Made by a program: the position numbers and the translations under genes. DNA of 64,000 nt, taken from contig NZ_BAABWK010000001.1 in assembly GCF_040362765.1 (NCBI RefSeq), positions 1,341,501 through 1,405,500 of the forward strand, given 5' to 3'. This stretch comes from Pyruvatibacter sp. HU-CL02332 (GTDB taxonomy: Bacteria > Pseudomonadota > Alphaproteobacteria > CGMCC-115125). Shown piece after piece: positions 7,285 through 21,322 of the stretch (positions are counted from its first letter, which is position 1; each line of letters opens with the position of its first letter). The notes below the pieces were generated by a model. It saw only the letters and a list, made by a program, of their open reading frames with translations, had not been told where the DNA came from and searched no databases.

Positions 7285-7938
7285 ATGGCAGCAGCCCTGT
7301 TGGTTGCCCCCGGTATCCCCTCTGCCATGGCCGAAGAAGCCAAGGCAGACGCTAAGTTAACGGCCCAGCCGGTCAAAGTGGTCGCTCTGGGCACAAGTCT
7401 GACCGCTGGATATGGCCTTGAGCAGGGCCAGGGCTTTGTTCCACAGCTGCAGGCAGCCCTCGATGAAGCCGGGCTCAGCGTTGTGCTCGAGAATGCGGGC
7501 GTATCCGGTGATACCTCCGCCGGGGGCCTTGCGCGCCTGGACTGGTCGCTCAACGACGATGTGGATGCGGTCATTGTGGAGCTTGGCTCCAATGACGCCC
7601 TGCGCGGTTTCGAGCCGCAGCAGACCCGCGAGAACCTCACAGCCATTCTGGACGCCCTGAAAGAACGTGGCCTGCCGGTCCTTCTCACCGGCATGCTGGC
7701 CCCGCCAAATCTGGGTGAGGAATATGGCGAGGAGTTCGCGTCGATCTATCCAGACCTTGCGGCGGAATACGACGTGTTGTTTTATCCCTTCTTCCTGGAA
7801 GGAGTGGCCGCGGAGGCAGCGCTCAATCAGGCGGACGGCATTCATCCCAACCCGGATGGTGTGGCAGTGATTGTGGAGGCGATCACGCCCTATGCGGTTC
7901 AGCTTGTAGAACATGCCCGCAAGGACAAATCTTCCTGA
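7285..7938 (+). CDS. SGNH/GDSL arylesterase (TesA-like), exported
   Basis: Secreted SGNH-fold esterase/lysophospholipase of the TesA/arylesterase family. The four blocks are complete: block I VVALGTSLTAGYGL with nucleophile Ser (Thr replaces the Asp of GDS), block II Gly in GVSGDTSAGG, block III ELGSND with Asn, block V DGIHPNPDG with the Asp-His pair. A hydrophobic stretch ending PSAMA-EEA is a signal peptide. ATG 7285 gives a very short signal; in-frame TTG 7222 would add 21 residues with a basic N-region (RLLYNRR), so the true start may be there. Upstream frame extension into the ABC gene is not credible. Divergent from the YbbA-like ATPase gene. Confidence 0.88.
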   Translation: MAAALLVAPGIPSAMAEEAKADAKLTAQPVKVVALGTSLTAGYGLEQGQGFVPQLQAALDEAGLSVVLENAGVSGDTSAGGLARLDWSLNDDVDAVIVELGSNDALRGFEPQQTRENLTAILDALKERGLPVLLTGMLAPPNLGEEYGEEFASIYPDLAAEYDVLFYPFFLEGVAAEAALNQADGIHPNPDGVAVIVEAITPYAVQLVEHARKDKSS

Positions 7939-14665: not shown

Positions 14666-15586
14666 CTACGTGCCCTCGGCGGACCGCCGCGCCTTGGCCT
14701 CAACCGCTTCCCGTCGCGCGATGTAGAGCGTCGTCGCCACAATGATGACGGCGCCGGCAATCGTCAGCCAGTCCGGCACATCACCGAAAATCAGGAAGCC
14801 CGCAATCGCTGCAAAAACGAGACGCGAATAATCAAACGGCACAATGGCCGATGCATCCCCTTCCCGGTAGCCGCGAATGAAACAGTTATGCGCGCCAGCC
14901 GCAAACACGCCCATGAGCACCAGCAGCCCCATCTCGTTCCACGTGGGCGTGATCCACACAAAGGCCGCAGGAATACCCGCCACCACCGTGCCGACGACGC
15001 CTGTGTAAAACATCAATGTGACCGGTGCGTCCTTCACAACGATCTTTACAAAGATTGTTGCCATGGCCACGCACAGCGCACCGGCGAGCGCCACCAATGC
15101 CGCAGGATCGATCTCCACCGTTGGCCGCAGCATCACCAGCACACCAACAAACCCGATCAGCACAGCACCGATGCGACGCGGACCTGCCGGCTCTTTCAAA
15201 ATGAAATAGGCCAAGGGCACCACAAACAATGCCTTGGTAAAATTGTAAGCCAGCGCATCAGCCAGCGGCAGATGCACCAATGCGTAGAACCCGCACATCA
15301 TGGCTGTGGAGCCAACCACGCCACGGGCGATCTGCAGCAGGGGATAGTGCGTCTTGATGGACGCCATGCCGCCGCGAATGAGAAACGGCACAATCACCAG
15401 CAGCGCAATGAACATGCGAAAGAACGCCAGCTGCAAACTGTCCAGCCGGTCCCCCAGCGTTTTTGCCAGCACTGCCATCGCTGTAAAACACGTGGCCGAC
15501 AAAAGCAGCCACAAGGCACCGCGCACATTGGGGGGCAATGTCACCCAGTAGGCAGCCGCCCGCTCACGTTGGGACGCAACACTCAT
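14666..15586 (-). CDS. EamA/DMT-family transporter A
   Basis: Drug/metabolite transporter with ten predicted helices in two EamA repeats, 306 residues. The start overlaps the stop of the next DMT gene by 4 bases (ATGA), so the two are translated together. The proteins are clear paralogues: both begin with a TLxPNxRGALWLLxSxxxFTxMAVLxK segment and share the repeated GxVLIGFxGVLVMLRP block, interrupted at different residues. Two half-similar DMT proteins encoded in tandem could work as homodimers or a heterodimer. Substrate unknown; small organic metabolites are usual. Confidence 0.9.
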   Translation of the reverse strand: MSVASQRERAAAYWVTLPPNVRGALWLLLSATCFTAMAVLAKTLGDRLDSLQLAFFRMFIALLVIVPFLIRGGMASIKTHYPLLQIARGVVGSTAMMCGFYALVHLPLADALAYNFTKALFVVPLAYFILKEPAGPRRIGAVLIGFVGVLVMLRPTVEIDPAALVALAGALCVAMATIFVKIVVKDAPVTLMFYTGVVGTVVAGIPAAFVWITPTWNEMGLLVLMGVFAAGAHNCFIRGYREGDASAIVPFDYSRLVFAAIAGFLIFGDVPDWLTIAGAVIIVATTLYIARREAVEAKARRSAEGT

Positions 15587-16548
15587 TCGGCTTTGCTTTC
15601 AGATACGGCTGCGGCAGCTTTTGCACGCGCGACCGCGGCTTCACGCTGCGCAATGTAAAAACTTGTAGCCGCAATAATTACCGCACCCACAATCGTATAG
15701 ATGTCGGGCACCGTGCCAAAGAACAAAAACCCGGCAACGCCAGCGAACAGCAACCGCGTGTAATCAATTGGCGCCATGGCCGTGGCTTCACCCACCCGGT
15801 AAGCCCGCAGAAAACAGTTATGCGCGCCGGCACCGACAATGCCCATGCCAGCCAGCATCGCCCACTCATAAGGCGTTGGATCAATCCAGTTGAGGGCCAT
15901 AGGCACGACCGTCATGGCGCAGCCGAACACGCCGGAGAAGAGCATCATGGTGAGCGGCCCGTCCTTGTCGGACACAAGCTTGACCATGATCGCAGCGCCC
16001 GCAATCAGCAACGCACCAAACAGCGCCACGAAGGCTGCCGGTTCAAAGTCGCCCGAAGGCCGCAGCATGACCAACACACCCAGGAAGCCGATAATCACCG
16101 CCGTGATGCGCCGCCACCCGGGCACCTCGCCAAGAAAGATGATGGCCAGCGGCACCATGAACAGCGCCTGCGCAAATTGAATGGCCTGCGCGTCAGCCAG
16201 AGGCAGTTTCACAAACGCATAAACCATGCAGATCATCGCGCCACCGCCGATGATGCCGCGCAGGGTCATCAACCGTGGATGGTTGGGAATGAACCCGCCA
16301 TCCTTGATGAGCCACGGCATGATGATGGCGGTTGCAAAGAACAGACGAAAGAACGCGACCTGCATGGGGTCGAGCCGCGTGCCCAGAAATTTGGTGAGCA
16401 CCGCCATGACCGTGAACAGCGACATGGACATCAACAGCCACAGGGCGCCACGCGTGTTGGGCGCGAGCGTGAACCACCACGACGTCAGGCGGTCACGGCG
16501 CGCCGAATAGGCGGTTGGTGTGTCGTGATCAGTCACGCGAGAGTTCAT
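15583..16548 (-). CDS. EamA/DMT-family transporter B
   Basis: Upstream member of the coupled DMT pair, 321 residues and ten helices. It has a longer polar N-terminus (MNSRVTDHDTPTAYSARRD) than its partner. ATG 16548 is chosen; the frame continues upstream to 16629, but that extension is Cys/Trp-rich and lacks homology. The C-terminal tail is rich in Ala and Lys/Glu and cytoplasmic. Probable function is export of amino acids or related metabolites, as inferred from the family only. Confidence 0.88.
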   Translation of the reverse strand: MNSRVTDHDTPTAYSARRDRLTSWWFTLAPNTRGALWLLMSMSLFTVMAVLTKFLGTRLDPMQVAFFRLFFATAIIMPWLIKDGGFIPNHPRLMTLRGIIGGGAMICMVYAFVKLPLADAQAIQFAQALFMVPLAIIFLGEVPGWRRITAVIIGFLGVLVMLRPSGDFEPAAFVALFGALLIAGAAIMVKLVSDKDGPLTMMLFSGVFGCAMTVVPMALNWIDPTPYEWAMLAGMGIVGAGAHNCFLRAYRVGEATAMAPIDYTRLLFAGVAGFLFFGTVPDIYTIVGAVIIAATSFYIAQREAAVARAKAAAAVSESKAE

Positions 16549-16707
16549 CCTGACGGGAATACAGCAGCCCCAGCACCACTGTGGATATGCCCAACCTAGG
16601 TGCCAGCCGCCGCAGCTACAAGATGACACAGCGTCATTTAAGCTGATGTCTGTTGTGCGCTGGCGGACATTGCCACAAAAAGGTCAATGGCTCCGCGCAC
16701 TTAGAAC

Positions 16708-17523
16708 CTATGGCGCGGGAACCGCCTGATCCAGCGGATCAACTGTCGGAGAGGGGGCAGATCGCAATCGGTCTCCCAGGTCCACCATCAACCGCTGACG
16801 GATCGCCCGCCCGATAACCGCATAGCCTTCTTCGTTGAAGGCCAGCCCGTCCCACCGAAACAGGCTTTCATCCATCTGGCCGTCATCCGTCGCAATGAGC
16901 GACGCGGTATCAACAAAGTGCACCCCGGCATTGGCGTCGGCCAGCGCCTTGAGCTGCGTATTGGCCTGCGCAAAGGCGGGCCAGCGAGCCGACCGCATGG
17001 GCGATGGCGTGATGGAAAGAATGTAGACCTGCGGCGCATCGCGCGATCGCAGCTCTGCTGGACGCAGCAATGCAATCAACTCTGCCATATCCGCTTCCAC
17101 CTGATCCGGAGGCTTGCCGCCCACGTCAGCCAGATCATCCGCACCCGCCGAAATGACAACGGCAATCGGTTCGTAGGGTTGAATGATACGCGGCGCATAG
17201 GCTGTTACATGGGCAACATGCGCCCCGCCAAAGCCGCGCTTGATGACCGGTAGCGGAGCCAACGCCTGCTCCAGCGTGTCCCACTGGCGAATGGTGCCAC
17301 CACCGGCAAACACGATCTGATTTTTTTCAGGGGGGTTTGAAATATCCAGCCGTTCAAACTCGGCTATTTCACCGGCCCAATAAACCGGATCGCTGGAGGC
17401 CAGCAGCACATAGACAAGAAACGCAAAGACGATAACCACAAGCCCAGCCACAATGGCGGCGGCGCGTATTGCTGCGCGCCGCCACCCCCGTGGATCACGA
17501 TCATCGACCCTGTTCAGTGACAC
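16708..17523 (-). CDS. Membrane-anchored SGNH-fold protein lacking catalytic residues
   Basis: One N-terminal helix (about residues 18-42) anchors an SGNH-hydrolase-like domain. The fold is recognisable from the order of blocks: FAGGGTIRQWDTLE (block I), VIKRGFGGAHVAHVTAYAPRI (block II, in part), ISAGADDL (block III) and WDGLAFNEEGY (block V). In the active family these read GSSSIR, GFGG, GDNDL and DGLH. Here the nucleophile Ser is Gly, the block III Asn is Asp and the catalytic His is Ala, so it is a probable pseudoenzyme. The GTG start directly follows the stop of the quinone oxidoreductase gene, and no ribosome site is seen, implying translational coupling. Confidence 0.75.
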   Translation of the reverse strand: MSLNRVDDRDPRGWRRAAIRAAAIVAGLVVIVFAFLVYVLLASSDPVYWAGEIAEFERLDISNPPEKNQIVFAGGGTIRQWDTLEQALAPLPVIKRGFGGAHVAHVTAYAPRIIQPYEPIAVVISAGADDLADVGGKPPDQVEADMAELIALLRPAELRSRDAPQVYILSITPSPMRSARWPAFAQANTQLKALADANAGVHFVDTASLIATDDGQMDESLFRWDGLAFNEEGYAVIGRAIRQRLMVDLGDRLRSAPSPTVDPLDQAVPAP

Positions 17524-18525
17524 TTATTCAGTAACAAGAACAATCTTGCCCTTCACTTTGCGTGCCGCCATGTCGTTCAGCGCAGAGGCTGCGTCCGACA
17601 GGGGATAGGTCTTGGAGACCAGCGGCTTGATCTTGCCGGCTTTGAACATGCTCATCAGTTCAGCCAGGTTTTCCTTGTTGCGCTCTGGTTCGCGCGCCGT
17701 GAAGGCACCCCAGAACACACCAACAATCTGGCAGCCTTTGAGCAGCGCGAGATTGAGCGGCACTTTGGGGATCGGACCGGAGGCAAAACCAACAACCAGG
17801 AAACGACCTTCCCAGTTGGTCGCGCGAATGGCCGGTTCAGAATAGTCGCCACCCACCGGGTCATAGACAACGTCCGCACCCTGACCACCTGTCAGCTCCT
17901 TGATCTTTTCAGACAGCGCCTTTTGCTGATCGCGATCAAGTTCGCCGGTCGGATAGACAAGCCCGTCATCCGCACCATGGTCCTTGGCGACCTGCACTTT
18001 GTCTTCAGTTGACGCAGCCGCAATCACGCGTGCGCCCATGGCTTTGCCAAGCTCAACAGCAGCAAGGCCAACACCACCGGCCGCGCCCAGCACCAAAAGA
18101 GTTTCGCCCGGCTGGATCTTCGCGCGATCCTTGAGGGCGTGATGCGACGTGCCGTAGGTCATAAGGAAGGCAGATGCGGTCGTGAAATCCATTTCGTCAG
18201 GGAACGGTGTGCACCGTGCAGCTTCCAGAACGATCTCTTCAGCAAAGCCACCCCAGCCACATGAGCCGATGACCCGGTCGCCTTCCTTGAGCGTGGTGAC
18301 GCCCGGACCAACCTTGTCGACAACGCCTGCAACTTCACCGCCCGGTGAAAATGGCAGCGGCGGCTTGAACTGATATTTGTTTTCAATGATCAGCACGTCA
18401 GGGAAATTGACGGCGGCGGATTTAACCGCGATGCGCACCTGGCCTTCGCCCGGCTCCGGTGACGCCACATCTTCCAGAACCAGCGTTTCCGGCGGCCCAT
18501 ATTCCTTACACAAAACAGCCTTCAT
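17524..18525 (-). CDS. NADPH:quinone oxidoreductase, MDR superfamily
   Basis: Zinc-free medium-chain dehydrogenase/reductase of 333 residues, quinone oxidoreductase type. N-terminal GroES-like domain (MKAVLCKEYGPPETLVLEDV; later LPFSPGGEVAGVVDKVG) and Rossmann domain with LVLGAAGGVGLAAVELGKA. The zinc-ligand cysteines of alcohol dehydrogenases are absent. ATG 18525 has GGGAG upstream; a longer in-frame start at 18573 is unlikely. It reduces quinones or enones with NADPH. The gene abuts the SGNH-fold pseudoenzyme gene with no gap. Confidence 0.92.
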   Translation of the reverse strand: MKAVLCKEYGPPETLVLEDVASPEPGEGQVRIAVKSAAVNFPDVLIIENKYQFKPPLPFSPGGEVAGVVDKVGPGVTTLKEGDRVIGSCGWGGFAEEIVLEAARCTPFPDEMDFTTASAFLMTYGTSHHALKDRAKIQPGETLLVLGAAGGVGLAAVELGKAMGARVIAAASTEDKVQVAKDHGADDGLVYPTGELDRDQQKALSEKIKELTGGQGADVVYDPVGGDYSEPAIRATNWEGRFLVVGFASGPIPKVPLNLALLKGCQIVGVFWGAFTAREPERNKENLAELMSMFKAGKIKPLVSKTYPLSDAASALNDMAARKVKGKIVLVTE

Positions 18526-18650
18526 GGCGCTCTCCCTTGCTTCGTTGTCGTATCGATTATGGCAATTGCACATGCGTGCAGCTTCGCCACGGGATGTACC
18601 ATGGAGAGCGCATCAAAGCCAAAAGAAGTAAGAGGGTTGGCCCGTGTAGC

Positions 18651-19404: not shown

Positions 19405-20055
19405 ATGAACACAAATGTCACCACCACCCGCGCCAAAGGCTTCTTCGCCATCGGGGCAGAACGCATCTCAAAGCCTGGAAATCTGGGAAATCTGGTGCGA
19501 TCAGCCCATGCTTTTGGCGCCAGCTATTTCTTCACAGTGGACGCTCACAAGCGCATCAGATCCGGCCGGTCAGACACCTCCGACGCGAGCAGCAACATCC
19601 CCTACTACGGCTGGGACGGCGTCGATCAGATGCAAATGCCCGAGGGCTGCGATCTGGTGGGAATTGAGCTGATGGACGACGCGGTTGATCTGCCCAGCTT
19701 TTACCACCCCAGAAAAGCCGCCTATGTGCTGGGGCCTGAAGCAGGCTCCCTGTCGCCGGAAATGCGTGAGCGATGCACCAGCTTCATTCGCATCCCAACC
19801 GCCTTTTGCATCAACGTGGCCATGGCCGGGGCCATCGTCATGTATGACCGGGTCAAGACCCTGGGCAATTTTCCTGCCCGTCCCGTCTCATCCATGGGAA
19901 TGCCCGAGGGCGTGGCCCCACCCCTTGGCAGCTACGCTGACAAACGCAACTCACCGCGCGGCCGCGGGTCCACGGCGACACCCTCAAATGGAACTGGTGC
20001 TAGTCGGAGCCGCCTAGGGACAGAGCGCGCTGCACGAGTCCGAGTGCCCCGGTAA
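19405..20055 (+). CDS. TrmH/SpoU-family RNA methyltransferase
   Basis: SPOUT-fold 2'-O-ribose methyltransferase, 216 residues. The catalytic region has the N-x-x-x-x-x-R motif in KPGNLGNLVRSAHAFG, YVLGPEAGSLSPEM for motif 2 and IPTAFCINVAMAGAIVMYDR for motif 3 (usually IPxxxSLNVSxAxAI; here Phe-Cys-Ile-Asn-Val-Ala). The last 35 residues are a low-complexity Arg/Ser/Pro tail that overlaps the anti-sigma gene by 56 bases, so a frameshift or true tail are both possible. ATG 19405 begins the conserved part. Target RNA unknown. Confidence 0.85.
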   Translation: MNTNVTTTRAKGFFAIGAERISKPGNLGNLVRSAHAFGASYFFTVDAHKRIRSGRSDTSDASSNIPYYGWDGVDQMQMPEGCDLVGIELMDDAVDLPSFYHPRKAAYVLGPEAGSLSPEMRERCTSFIRIPTAFCINVAMAGAIVMYDRVKTLGNFPARPVSSMGMPEGVAPPLGSYADKRNSPRGRGSTATPSNGTGASRSRLGTERAARVRVPR

Positions 20056-20710
20056 GCTGCAGCGGCGCATCCGTAATCGCCAGAGCAAAACAGGTGTCTC
20101 CTGCTTCAGCAATGGGGCGATGGGTAATCTCAGGTGAAGCAACAGACACTTCCCCTGGACCAAACCGGTCCCGACCATCCGCGAACGCGCCCGTCAGGAC
20201 CAAAGTTACCTCACTGCCCTTATGGGTATGCGTCGGTACGCCCTTGCCCTGCTCCAGCCGGTAAAGCTTCACTTCCCCCGGCGCTGAATCAGCACTGCCC
20301 TGCGGCGCGTCAAATCCAAGGTCCATTGCCTTGACGCCCGGCGTCACGAAAGACCACTTGCCGCCACATGCGGCAATTCTATCCTGAATGACCTGCGGCA
20401 GGACTGTCAGTTCATCATCCATGGCCCGATCTGCCTGTGCATCCACCGGCATCCGGTCGATCAAAGACATCACCGCGTCAAATGCGCCCTCGCGCATGGC
20501 CACGGGCTCCGCATCATCCAGCAGGGCACCGCCCACAAGGGTCATCATATCCACGGTCTTGCGCGCGTCCGGGCAAAGGTCGAGATGGGCCGCCACCATC
20601 AAATTTGTGGCTTCATCCAGAGAACCGGTCACGTAATCGAGTAGAATCTCTTCGCCAAACCGCCGGTCTGGAGCTGGAGCCTCTGTCTGTGTCGTCTCGA
20701 TATTGGTCAT
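20000..20710 (-). CDS. ChrR-like cupin anti-sigma factor
   Basis: Anti-sigma factor with an N-terminal zinc anti-sigma domain and a C-terminal cupin, 236 residues. R. sphaeroides ChrR binds zinc through His6, His31, Cys35 and Cys38; aligned by the shared LLxxYxxG and AxHLxLC segments, this protein has Arg17, His42, Cys46 and Ala49, so two of four ligands are gone. The cupin metal motif THTHKGSE and later ITHRP are kept. It starts 3 bases after the sigma factor stop, the usual ChrR arrangement. By analogy it holds the sigma factor inactive until singlet oxygen or organic peroxide appears. Confidence 0.85.
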   Translation of the reverse strand: MTNIETTQTEAPAPDRRFGEEILLDYVTGSLDEATNLMVAAHLDLCPDARKTVDMMTLVGGALLDDAEPVAMREGAFDAVMSLIDRMPVDAQADRAMDDELTVLPQVIQDRIAACGGKWSFVTPGVKAMDLGFDAPQGSADSAPGEVKLYRLEQGKGVPTHTHKGSEVTLVLTGAFADGRDRFGPGEVSVASPEITHRPIAEAGDTCFALAITDAPLQLTGALGLVQRALSLGGSD

Positions 20711-20713
20711 CGT

Positions 20714-21322
20714 CTAAACAGTTCCCTCAAGTCCGCCTTTGAGTTTGCGGAAGGCAAGCCGCAGTCTCGATTTCACAGTTCCCAGCGGCAAGTTCTGATC
20801 TATGGCGATTTCGCTGTGTGACCAGCCCTTGAAGAAGGCCAGTTTTATCAACTCCGCCTGCTCCTCCGGCAAGGTTTCAAGCGCCGCACGCACTTTGACT
20901 TCTCGCTCGCCTGCCGCCACAGCCTCATCCGGCTGCTCAGCCTCAGAGGGCAACAGCAAGGGGTCGTCAGGGTCATAATCGGGAAATCTATCCCGCCGCA
21001 GCACATCAATGCGCCGGTTACGGGCAATCGTATAAAGCCATGTGGAGACCGATGACTGCCTGCGATCAAACTGCCCGGCCTTGCGCCAGAGGGTGATCAT
21101 GACTTCCTGAGACAGCTCTTCCGCCAGCGGCTCGCCGGACCCCAGTTTCATCAAATAGCCTTTGAGGCGGGGCGCGAAATAGTCAAACAGGGTCGCAAAG
21201 GCTTGCTTGTCCTGCCGCGCAGCAACCGCCTCAATGCAATCTGCCATGGCCTCACGGTCGTAGCCGCCGGTTTTTCCGGCCCCTGCTGCCTTGGCACTTA
21301 TCTGTGACGTTGCCACGTTCAC
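20714..21322 (-). CDS. rpoE: ECF sigma factor, RpoE/ECF11-like
   Basis: Extracytoplasmic-function sigma factor of 202 residues. Region 2 covers AFATLFDYFAPRLKGYLMK to QEVMITLWRKAGQFD and the -10-binding helix STWLYTIARNRRIDVLRR; region 4 covers LPEEQAELIKLAFFKGWSHSEIA and the helix LPLGTVKSRLRLAFRKLK. A polar N-terminal leader of about 25 residues precedes region 2; the first start is GTG 21322 and ATG 21247 is possible. With the adjoining ChrR-like gene this forms the photooxidative-stress pair known from R. sphaeroides. The regulon cannot be seen from this window. Confidence 0.9.
   Translation of the reverse strand: MNVATSQISAKAAGAGKTGGYDREAMADCIEAVAARQDKQAFATLFDYFAPRLKGYLMKLGSGEPLAEELSQEVMITLWRKAGQFDRRQSSVSTWLYTIARNRRIDVLRRDRFPDYDPDDPLLLPSEAEQPDEAVAAGEREVKVRAALETLPEEQAELIKLAFFKGWSHSEIAIDQNLPLGTVKSRLRLAFRKLKGGLEGTV

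Follow-up and report, generated by a model that had tools for sequence, protein, structure and literature searches.

A gene at positions 16708-17523 (minus strand) of the 64,000-nt stretch of DNA analysed here (the window) encodes an SGNH-fold protein that lacks the catalytic Ser, Asn and His. The three-residue loss extends across the clade of its orthologues, a single clade that displays new invariant residues and a conserved gene order. The protein is probably a lineage-fixed, periplasmic, inner-membrane-tethered SGNH pseudoenzyme reused as a non-hydrolytic binding or scaffold subunit, a reading favoured because it best explains why the gene is retained, why its active site is gone and why constraint has newly arisen near the membrane. 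SGNH pseudoenzymes are already known; new here is that three residues are lost in a membrane-anchored protein whose gene has a constant place in the gene order. Because the clade is well sampled, has lost Ser, Asn and His, and combines an intact sister with fixed gene order and strong purifying selection, it would constitute a clean bacterial case of a hydrolase fold turning non-enzymatic. It also hints that these Alphaproteobacteria have an envelope function that is still uncharacterised. It should be noted that annotation by the PF13472 profile labels these proteins GDSL lipases; judged by their residues, they should not be annotated as SGNH hydrolases.

The gene is one open frame of 271 aa, its coordinates counting in the stop codon, and its GTG start codon (17523-17521, minus strand) directly follows the TAA of an upstream quinone oxidoreductase-like (QOR) gene. 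An assembly error was ruled out, the frame being common to three separate genomes of the window's genus. The translated aa sequence matches Pfam PF13472 (Lipase_GDSL_2) with an E value of 3.5e-13 and 50.9 bits (curated cut-off 32.9), and NCBIfam returned no match for the four proteins searched, i.e., the window protein and orthologues L004-L006. The nearest solved sequence is 4iyj, with an E value of 8.5e-06 in a sequence search and 7.8e-10 in Foldseek with an AlphaFold2 model. This model, for which the input was four sequences only, has a mean pLDDT of 77.8 and a pTM of 0.70 and consists of a long N-terminal helix (residues 11-43), a second helix (46-62) and then the alternating SGNH core. 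The computed fold is SGNH: the profile score lies above the cut-off and Z exceeds 20 to SGNH structures, including 9hi5 (Z 22.5, rmsd 2.6 over 202 residues, 23% identity) and the PAF-AH 1wab (Z 21.1, rmsd 2.6 over 192 residues). Among the closest folds are PAF-AH Ib alpha subunits and Bacteroides GDSL-like acylhydrolases (1wab, 1vyh, 4iyj and 4ppy), with Z of 20.6-21.7, rmsd of 2.6-3.0, 192-202 residues matched and 18-22% identity, the PAF-AH Ib alpha family at 18-20%. These four structures are titled acylhydrolases, however, and their match to the model, in which the ranges start at residues 39-45, does not take in the membrane helix described here. A tRNA scan of the whole window found none.

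The SGNH block roles described in the available text of PMC9487903 were used to assign the Ser, Asn and His columns. Residues were counted in 39 orthologues and in 23 other homologues (L048, L049, L011, L012, L013, L014 and 17 more, L015-L017 and L095-L108). Duplicates (L001, L004-L006, L058-L063) were removed before counting, the re-fetched copies L064-L077 were not counted, L015-L018 are absent from the first alignment, and weaker matches in which the block alignment is uncertain (e.g., L018-L021, L078-L084) were excluded from the set of 23. Block I (residues 72-79, FAGGGTIR, 17287-17310; all blocks are on the minus strand) has G76 in the column of the nucleophile Ser, where the orthologues display Arg (30), Asp (5), Gly (3) and Ser (1), versus Ser (22) and Ala (1) in the other homologues. 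The oxyanion Asn column of block III (residues 126-134, AGADDLADV, 17122-17148) is D129; it is Ala in 22 orthologues, Glu in 10, Asp in 5, Ser in 2 and Asn in none, versus Asn in 23/23. Block V (residues 222-234, FRWDGLAFNEEGY, 16822-16860) has A228 in the column of the general-base His, and here 19 orthologues have Thr, 18 Ser, 2 Ala and none His, versus His in 23/23. Ser, Asn and His occur together in 22 of the 23 related homologues; in no orthologue (0/39) do even two of the three.

Two other features of active SGNH hydrolases are retained. The oxyanion Gly of block II (residues 96-101, RGFGGA, 17221-17238) is in place, with G97, G99, G100 and the motif RGFGG found in 39/39 orthologues, and the block V Asp (D225) is found in 38/39, next to a newly invariant W224 (39/39). 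A sequence-only reading of this DNA had every catalytic residue lost. This holds for Ser, Asn and His, replaced by G76, D129 and A228 in the joint alignment, but not for the block II Gly and block V Asp. By established SGNH chemistry, as given in the available text of PMC9487903, the canonical Ser-His mechanism is impossible with the residues that the sequence predicts. The fold, the block order, block II RGFGG, the block V Asp and an N-terminal export signal or anchor are shared with exported SGNH/GDSL hydrolases of the FVGSSSIR...GDND...DxLH type (PF13472; e.g., L048/L049), whereas the clade described here is without Ser, Asn and His and without five further columns that are invariant in the intact hydrolases.

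Constraint lost and gained was compared by column entropy in 18 pseudoenzyme and 20 intact representatives (80% identity), with the Ser to Ala homologue L011 left out of the intact set. Of the 21 columns that hardly vary among the intact representatives, the pseudoenzymes have lost eight, namely 75, 76 (Ser), 125 (Tyr), 129 (Asn), 172 (Lys), 174 (Ser), 228 (His) and 237 (Trp); 12 are kept at an entropy of 0.31 or less, and Tyr234 is at 0.50. The sequence-only reading proposed checking whether orthologues are conserved at the pocket; at the residues of the old active site they are not. Forty-two columns are invariant across the 18 orthologue representatives. Newly invariant in the orthologues are R58, S62, N63, P90, R154, R180 and W224, and the former block III, IV and V loops show new constraint at D133, R154, R180, R223 and W224. 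In the block IV-side segment (residues 170-181, SITPSPMRSARW, 16981-17016, minus strand), R180 and W181 are invariant in the orthologue representatives and the Lys of column 172, invariant in intact proteins, is gone. W181 and the insertion at 134 are already foreshadowed in L048/L049.

The new invariant residues stand out most close to the membrane. Mean entropy is 0.52 in the outer half of the membrane helix and 0.58 in the juxtamembrane residues 44-65, versus 1.92 in the inner half of the helix and 1.27 in the core. The transmembrane anchor predicted from hydropathy (residues 16-43, 17395-17478, minus strand) forms part of the single helix 11-43 of the model, and its outer half (32-43) is strongly conserved; in the juxtamembrane helix and SNPP linker that follow (residues 44-65, 17329-17394, minus strand), 9 of 22 columns are invariant in the 18 representatives. 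Hydropathy over 19 residues (KD19) peaks at 3.09 for the window protein and reaches 1.6 or more in 38/39 orthologues; the one low value is probably that of L054, which has its 5′ end cut by a contig edge. Positive charges on the N-side equal or exceed those on the C-side in 38/39. The hydropathy and charge pattern supports a predicted N-in/C-out topology with the SGNH domain in the periplasm. Instead of an uncleaved anchor, there may be late signal-peptide cleavage at the conserved AS[GS] (after ASG or ASS). A docking surface is suggested because a plain anchor needs no invariant FxFLxYVLL.

The history and role that we propose are as follows. An exported relative of SGNH esterases would have gained an inner-membrane tether in the form of an N-terminal helix that is not cleaved, and its gene would have settled behind the quinone oxidoreductase gene; nucleophile Ser, oxyanion Asn and general-base His would then have been lost, with the fold kept. 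At present the protein would serve as a non-hydrolytic binding or scaffold subunit in the periplasm. Docking to a membrane partner would fall to the outer membrane-helix half together with the helix next to it, and the rim of the former active site, now remodelled (R180-W181, R223-W224 and the insertion after block III), may hold a ligand or partner. As a counterpoint, the variable residues at the three catalytic columns would fit no single conserved ligand contact there. A more specific version can be put forward only tentatively: a two-family lineage in which an SGNH esterase became a dedicated non-enzymatic membrane-docking subunit, with the outer helix half and YWxGEIAxFERxDxSNPP as a specific interface with a putative inner-membrane partner, and with the gutted active site, marked by a new R-W-D-G signature, taken over for binding a ligand or partner.

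In the tree the 39 orthologues form a single clade (support 100/99). The nearest intact relatives, L048 and L049, are second copies in two genomes (G391 and G390) and join the clade with support 98/73, a join that, according to a warning of the tree program, unites long branches; L014 was excluded from the tree. L048/L049 are membrane-anchored intact paralogues with GSSSIR, GDND and DGLH, found only in these two genomes, and they are natural active controls for the pseudoenzyme. The simplest history would be a duplication in which the copy behind the quinone oxidoreductase gene was retained and catalysis was lost in that copy. A rival idea is that the protein regulates an active SGNH paralogue in the manner of a prozyme, forming dimers with it like those of the PAF-AH Ib alpha subunits. 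PAF-AH Ib structures, including the alpha1/alpha2 heterodimer 1fxw, are among the close fold matches, two genomes carry the intact paralogue, and the window's own genome has seven further PF13472 matches. As background, an inactive PAF-AH alpha exists in Drosophila, although a literature search for it did not bring it up. However only 2 of the 36 orthologue-bearing genomes of the related family have the near paralogue, and the window protein as query gives no second match in its own genome, where the other SGNH genes are only distant. Regulation of a paralogue is unlikely, and weaker than a binding or scaffold role, since nearly all the genomes lack the near paralogue.

The replacements at the catalytic columns bear on whether the protein is still an enzyme. 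The exact set GGGT/GADD/DGLA is limited to the window and its nearest relative. The window clade has G76, T77, D129 and A228 (T228 in L003), and most of the sister family has R76, D77, Ala or Glu at 129 and Ser or Thr at 228. Sharing of the same substitutions, the other point that the sequence-only reading proposed to check in orthologues, is not what was found: the loss is common to all, and the replacements differ. Different replacements by branch suggest that the nucleophile column was freed from constraint after function had been lost. A different catalytic apparatus in the same fold could nevertheless be imagined, e.g., acidic residues at blocks I and III acting with the kept Asp225. Acidic residues are common at position +3 of block I (Asp in 34/39) and at block III, and SGNH variants are known with a rebuilt oxyanion hole that does not use the block III Asn (the SASA family and PatB1, in the available text of PMC9487903). 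In that same text, however, the variants without Asn retain the nucleophile Ser, which is absent here. A new enzyme is weaker still than paralogue regulation, and rather improbable, because no replacement residue is common to the orthologues. The sole orthologue with Ser at the nucleophile column, L009, is placed among rows with Arg, and its Ser may be a retention or a reversion. A distant homologue, L011 (G055, match 1258-1860), has FVGSADFK, with Ala for the nucleophile Ser and with Asn and His kept, apparently a separate, partial loss.

The 39 orthologues come from 39 genomes, 3 in the window's genus and 36 in a related family. In a class-wide sample, 18 of 385 genomes have a match at E <0.001, and close matches are confined to the window's own genus and that one other family; named loci of the orthologue group are MAGs labelled Rhodobiaceae and Alphaproteobacteria. 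The related family has an orthologue in 36 of 40 genomes, and in 26 of 27 good ones. The window's own order, which in the sample comprises the same four genomes as its family, carries the gene in 3/4, the fourth genome being 81% complete and in 740 contigs. Between the window and its nearest relative (G001) dN/dS is 0.036, with 6 non-synonymous and 49 synonymous differences; other listed pairs with dS <0.49 give 0.068-0.195, L007-L022 gives 0.056 (dS 0.498) and pairs with larger dS reach 0.35. Read from stop to stop, orthologue proteins are full length except for the contig-edge copies L054 and L055; stops listed in some matches were read as falling in alignment ends. The gene is under purifying selection, and the loss without collapse of the frame that the sequence-only reading described is confirmed. 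With SGNH pseudoenzymes of the ERMO3/MVP1 kind the protein shares a homologous fold without the catalytic Ser, kept by selection, and like them it would be without hydrolase activity.

A relic on its way out, i.e., a decaying gene kept only through its operon position, would agree with the lost active site and with the absence of the gene at the same locus in one genus. It is very improbable against the low dN/dS (0.036-0.195 in the listed pairs with dS <0.49), the open frames, the 42 invariant columns and the presence in nearly all good related-family genomes. A simple loss confined to the window, all other orthologues being intact, would suit the narrow occurrence of the exact replacement set, but is refuted in the sample examined and has next to no probability, given that Asn and His are in 0/39 orthologues, that 38/39 are without Ser and that the orthologue clade excludes the intact homologues; the intact orthologues by which the sequence-only reading would have fallen were not found.

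The QOR gene directly upstream (17524-18573, minus strand) is MDR-type, with Pfam ADH_zinc_N and ADH_N, and its best NCBIfam match, TIGR02824, is below the cut-off. The same QOR-like gene immediately precedes the SGNH gene, in the same orientation, in 38/38 testable orthologous loci (tblastn; 39 loci); at the untestable locus, L054, a contig edge leaves 1 base ahead of the residue-33 codon. No gap separates the QOR stop codon from the GTG in the window and in its nearest relative, and in the third genus member an ATG lies at 1 nt. Such near-zero spacing is found only in the three genomes of this genus. Likely starts in the other family are mostly ~20-90 nt after the QOR stop, some at 119-251 nt. 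The link to the quinone oxidoreductase, described by the sequence-only reading as translational coupling, is a kept gene order; coupling may apply in the window's genus, but was rejected as a general feature. Downstream in the related family is a beta-lactamase-family gene (PF00144), in some genomes with a RidA-type gene too. These do not follow in the window's genus, and the window's own genome has only a 37% relative of the beta-lactamase-family gene, located elsewhere. In both genomes of genus g277 (L086 and L085; G386 and G385) the QOR and beta-lactamase-family genes are adjacent and the SGNH gene is absent, an empty site; therefore the SGNH gene is not required by that operon. The neighbours QOR, ECH and RidA look cytoplasmic, and therefore are no obvious physical partners in the periplasm.

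Some precedents can be compared. The Arabidopsis GDSL-family pseudoenzyme ERMO3/MVP1/GOLD36 has Gly for the catalytic Ser, and a Gly-to-Ser variant complements the mutant (available text of PMC3498303); a few such plant SGNH pseudoenzyme sequences are counted in the part of PMC4757993 available. There, too, the catalytic Ser is gone and the protein is retained, in ERMO3/MVP1/GOLD36 with a non-hydrolytic role (PMC3498303 and PMC4757993, same texts). However ERMO3/MVP1/GOLD36 resides in the plant vacuole and, as described, carries a single essential mutation, whereas in the bacterial clade three residues are missing and the protein has a membrane anchor. CtCE2, an SGNH-fold CE2 esterase, binds cellulose non-catalytically at its active site and is a precedent for binding there, but retains the Ser-His dyad and activity (available text of PMC2661963). 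A literature search found no paper on the bacterial clade, which does not prove that such papers are absent.

Other SGNH domains and gene pairs occur in the window and its genome. A second SGNH domain, TesA-like and apparently intact with GTS/GSND/DGIH motifs, is encoded at 7384-7863 (plus strand), ~9 kb from the pseudoenzyme. Elsewhere in the genome are two pairs of neighbouring SGNH-domain genes (G000:C1:797599-799776 and 1117412-1119361), which we take to resemble acetyltransferase-type clusters. Tandem EamA-type transporter genes at 14666-15586 and 15583-16629 (minus strand) overlap by a few bases and share ~49% identity. At 20000-21322 (minus strand) an ECF sigma factor gene is followed by a ChrR-cupin/zf-HC2 anti-sigma-like gene; the pair is separated from the DUF2141-QOR-SGNH run by ~800 bases, in which a SpoU-type gene lies on the other strand.
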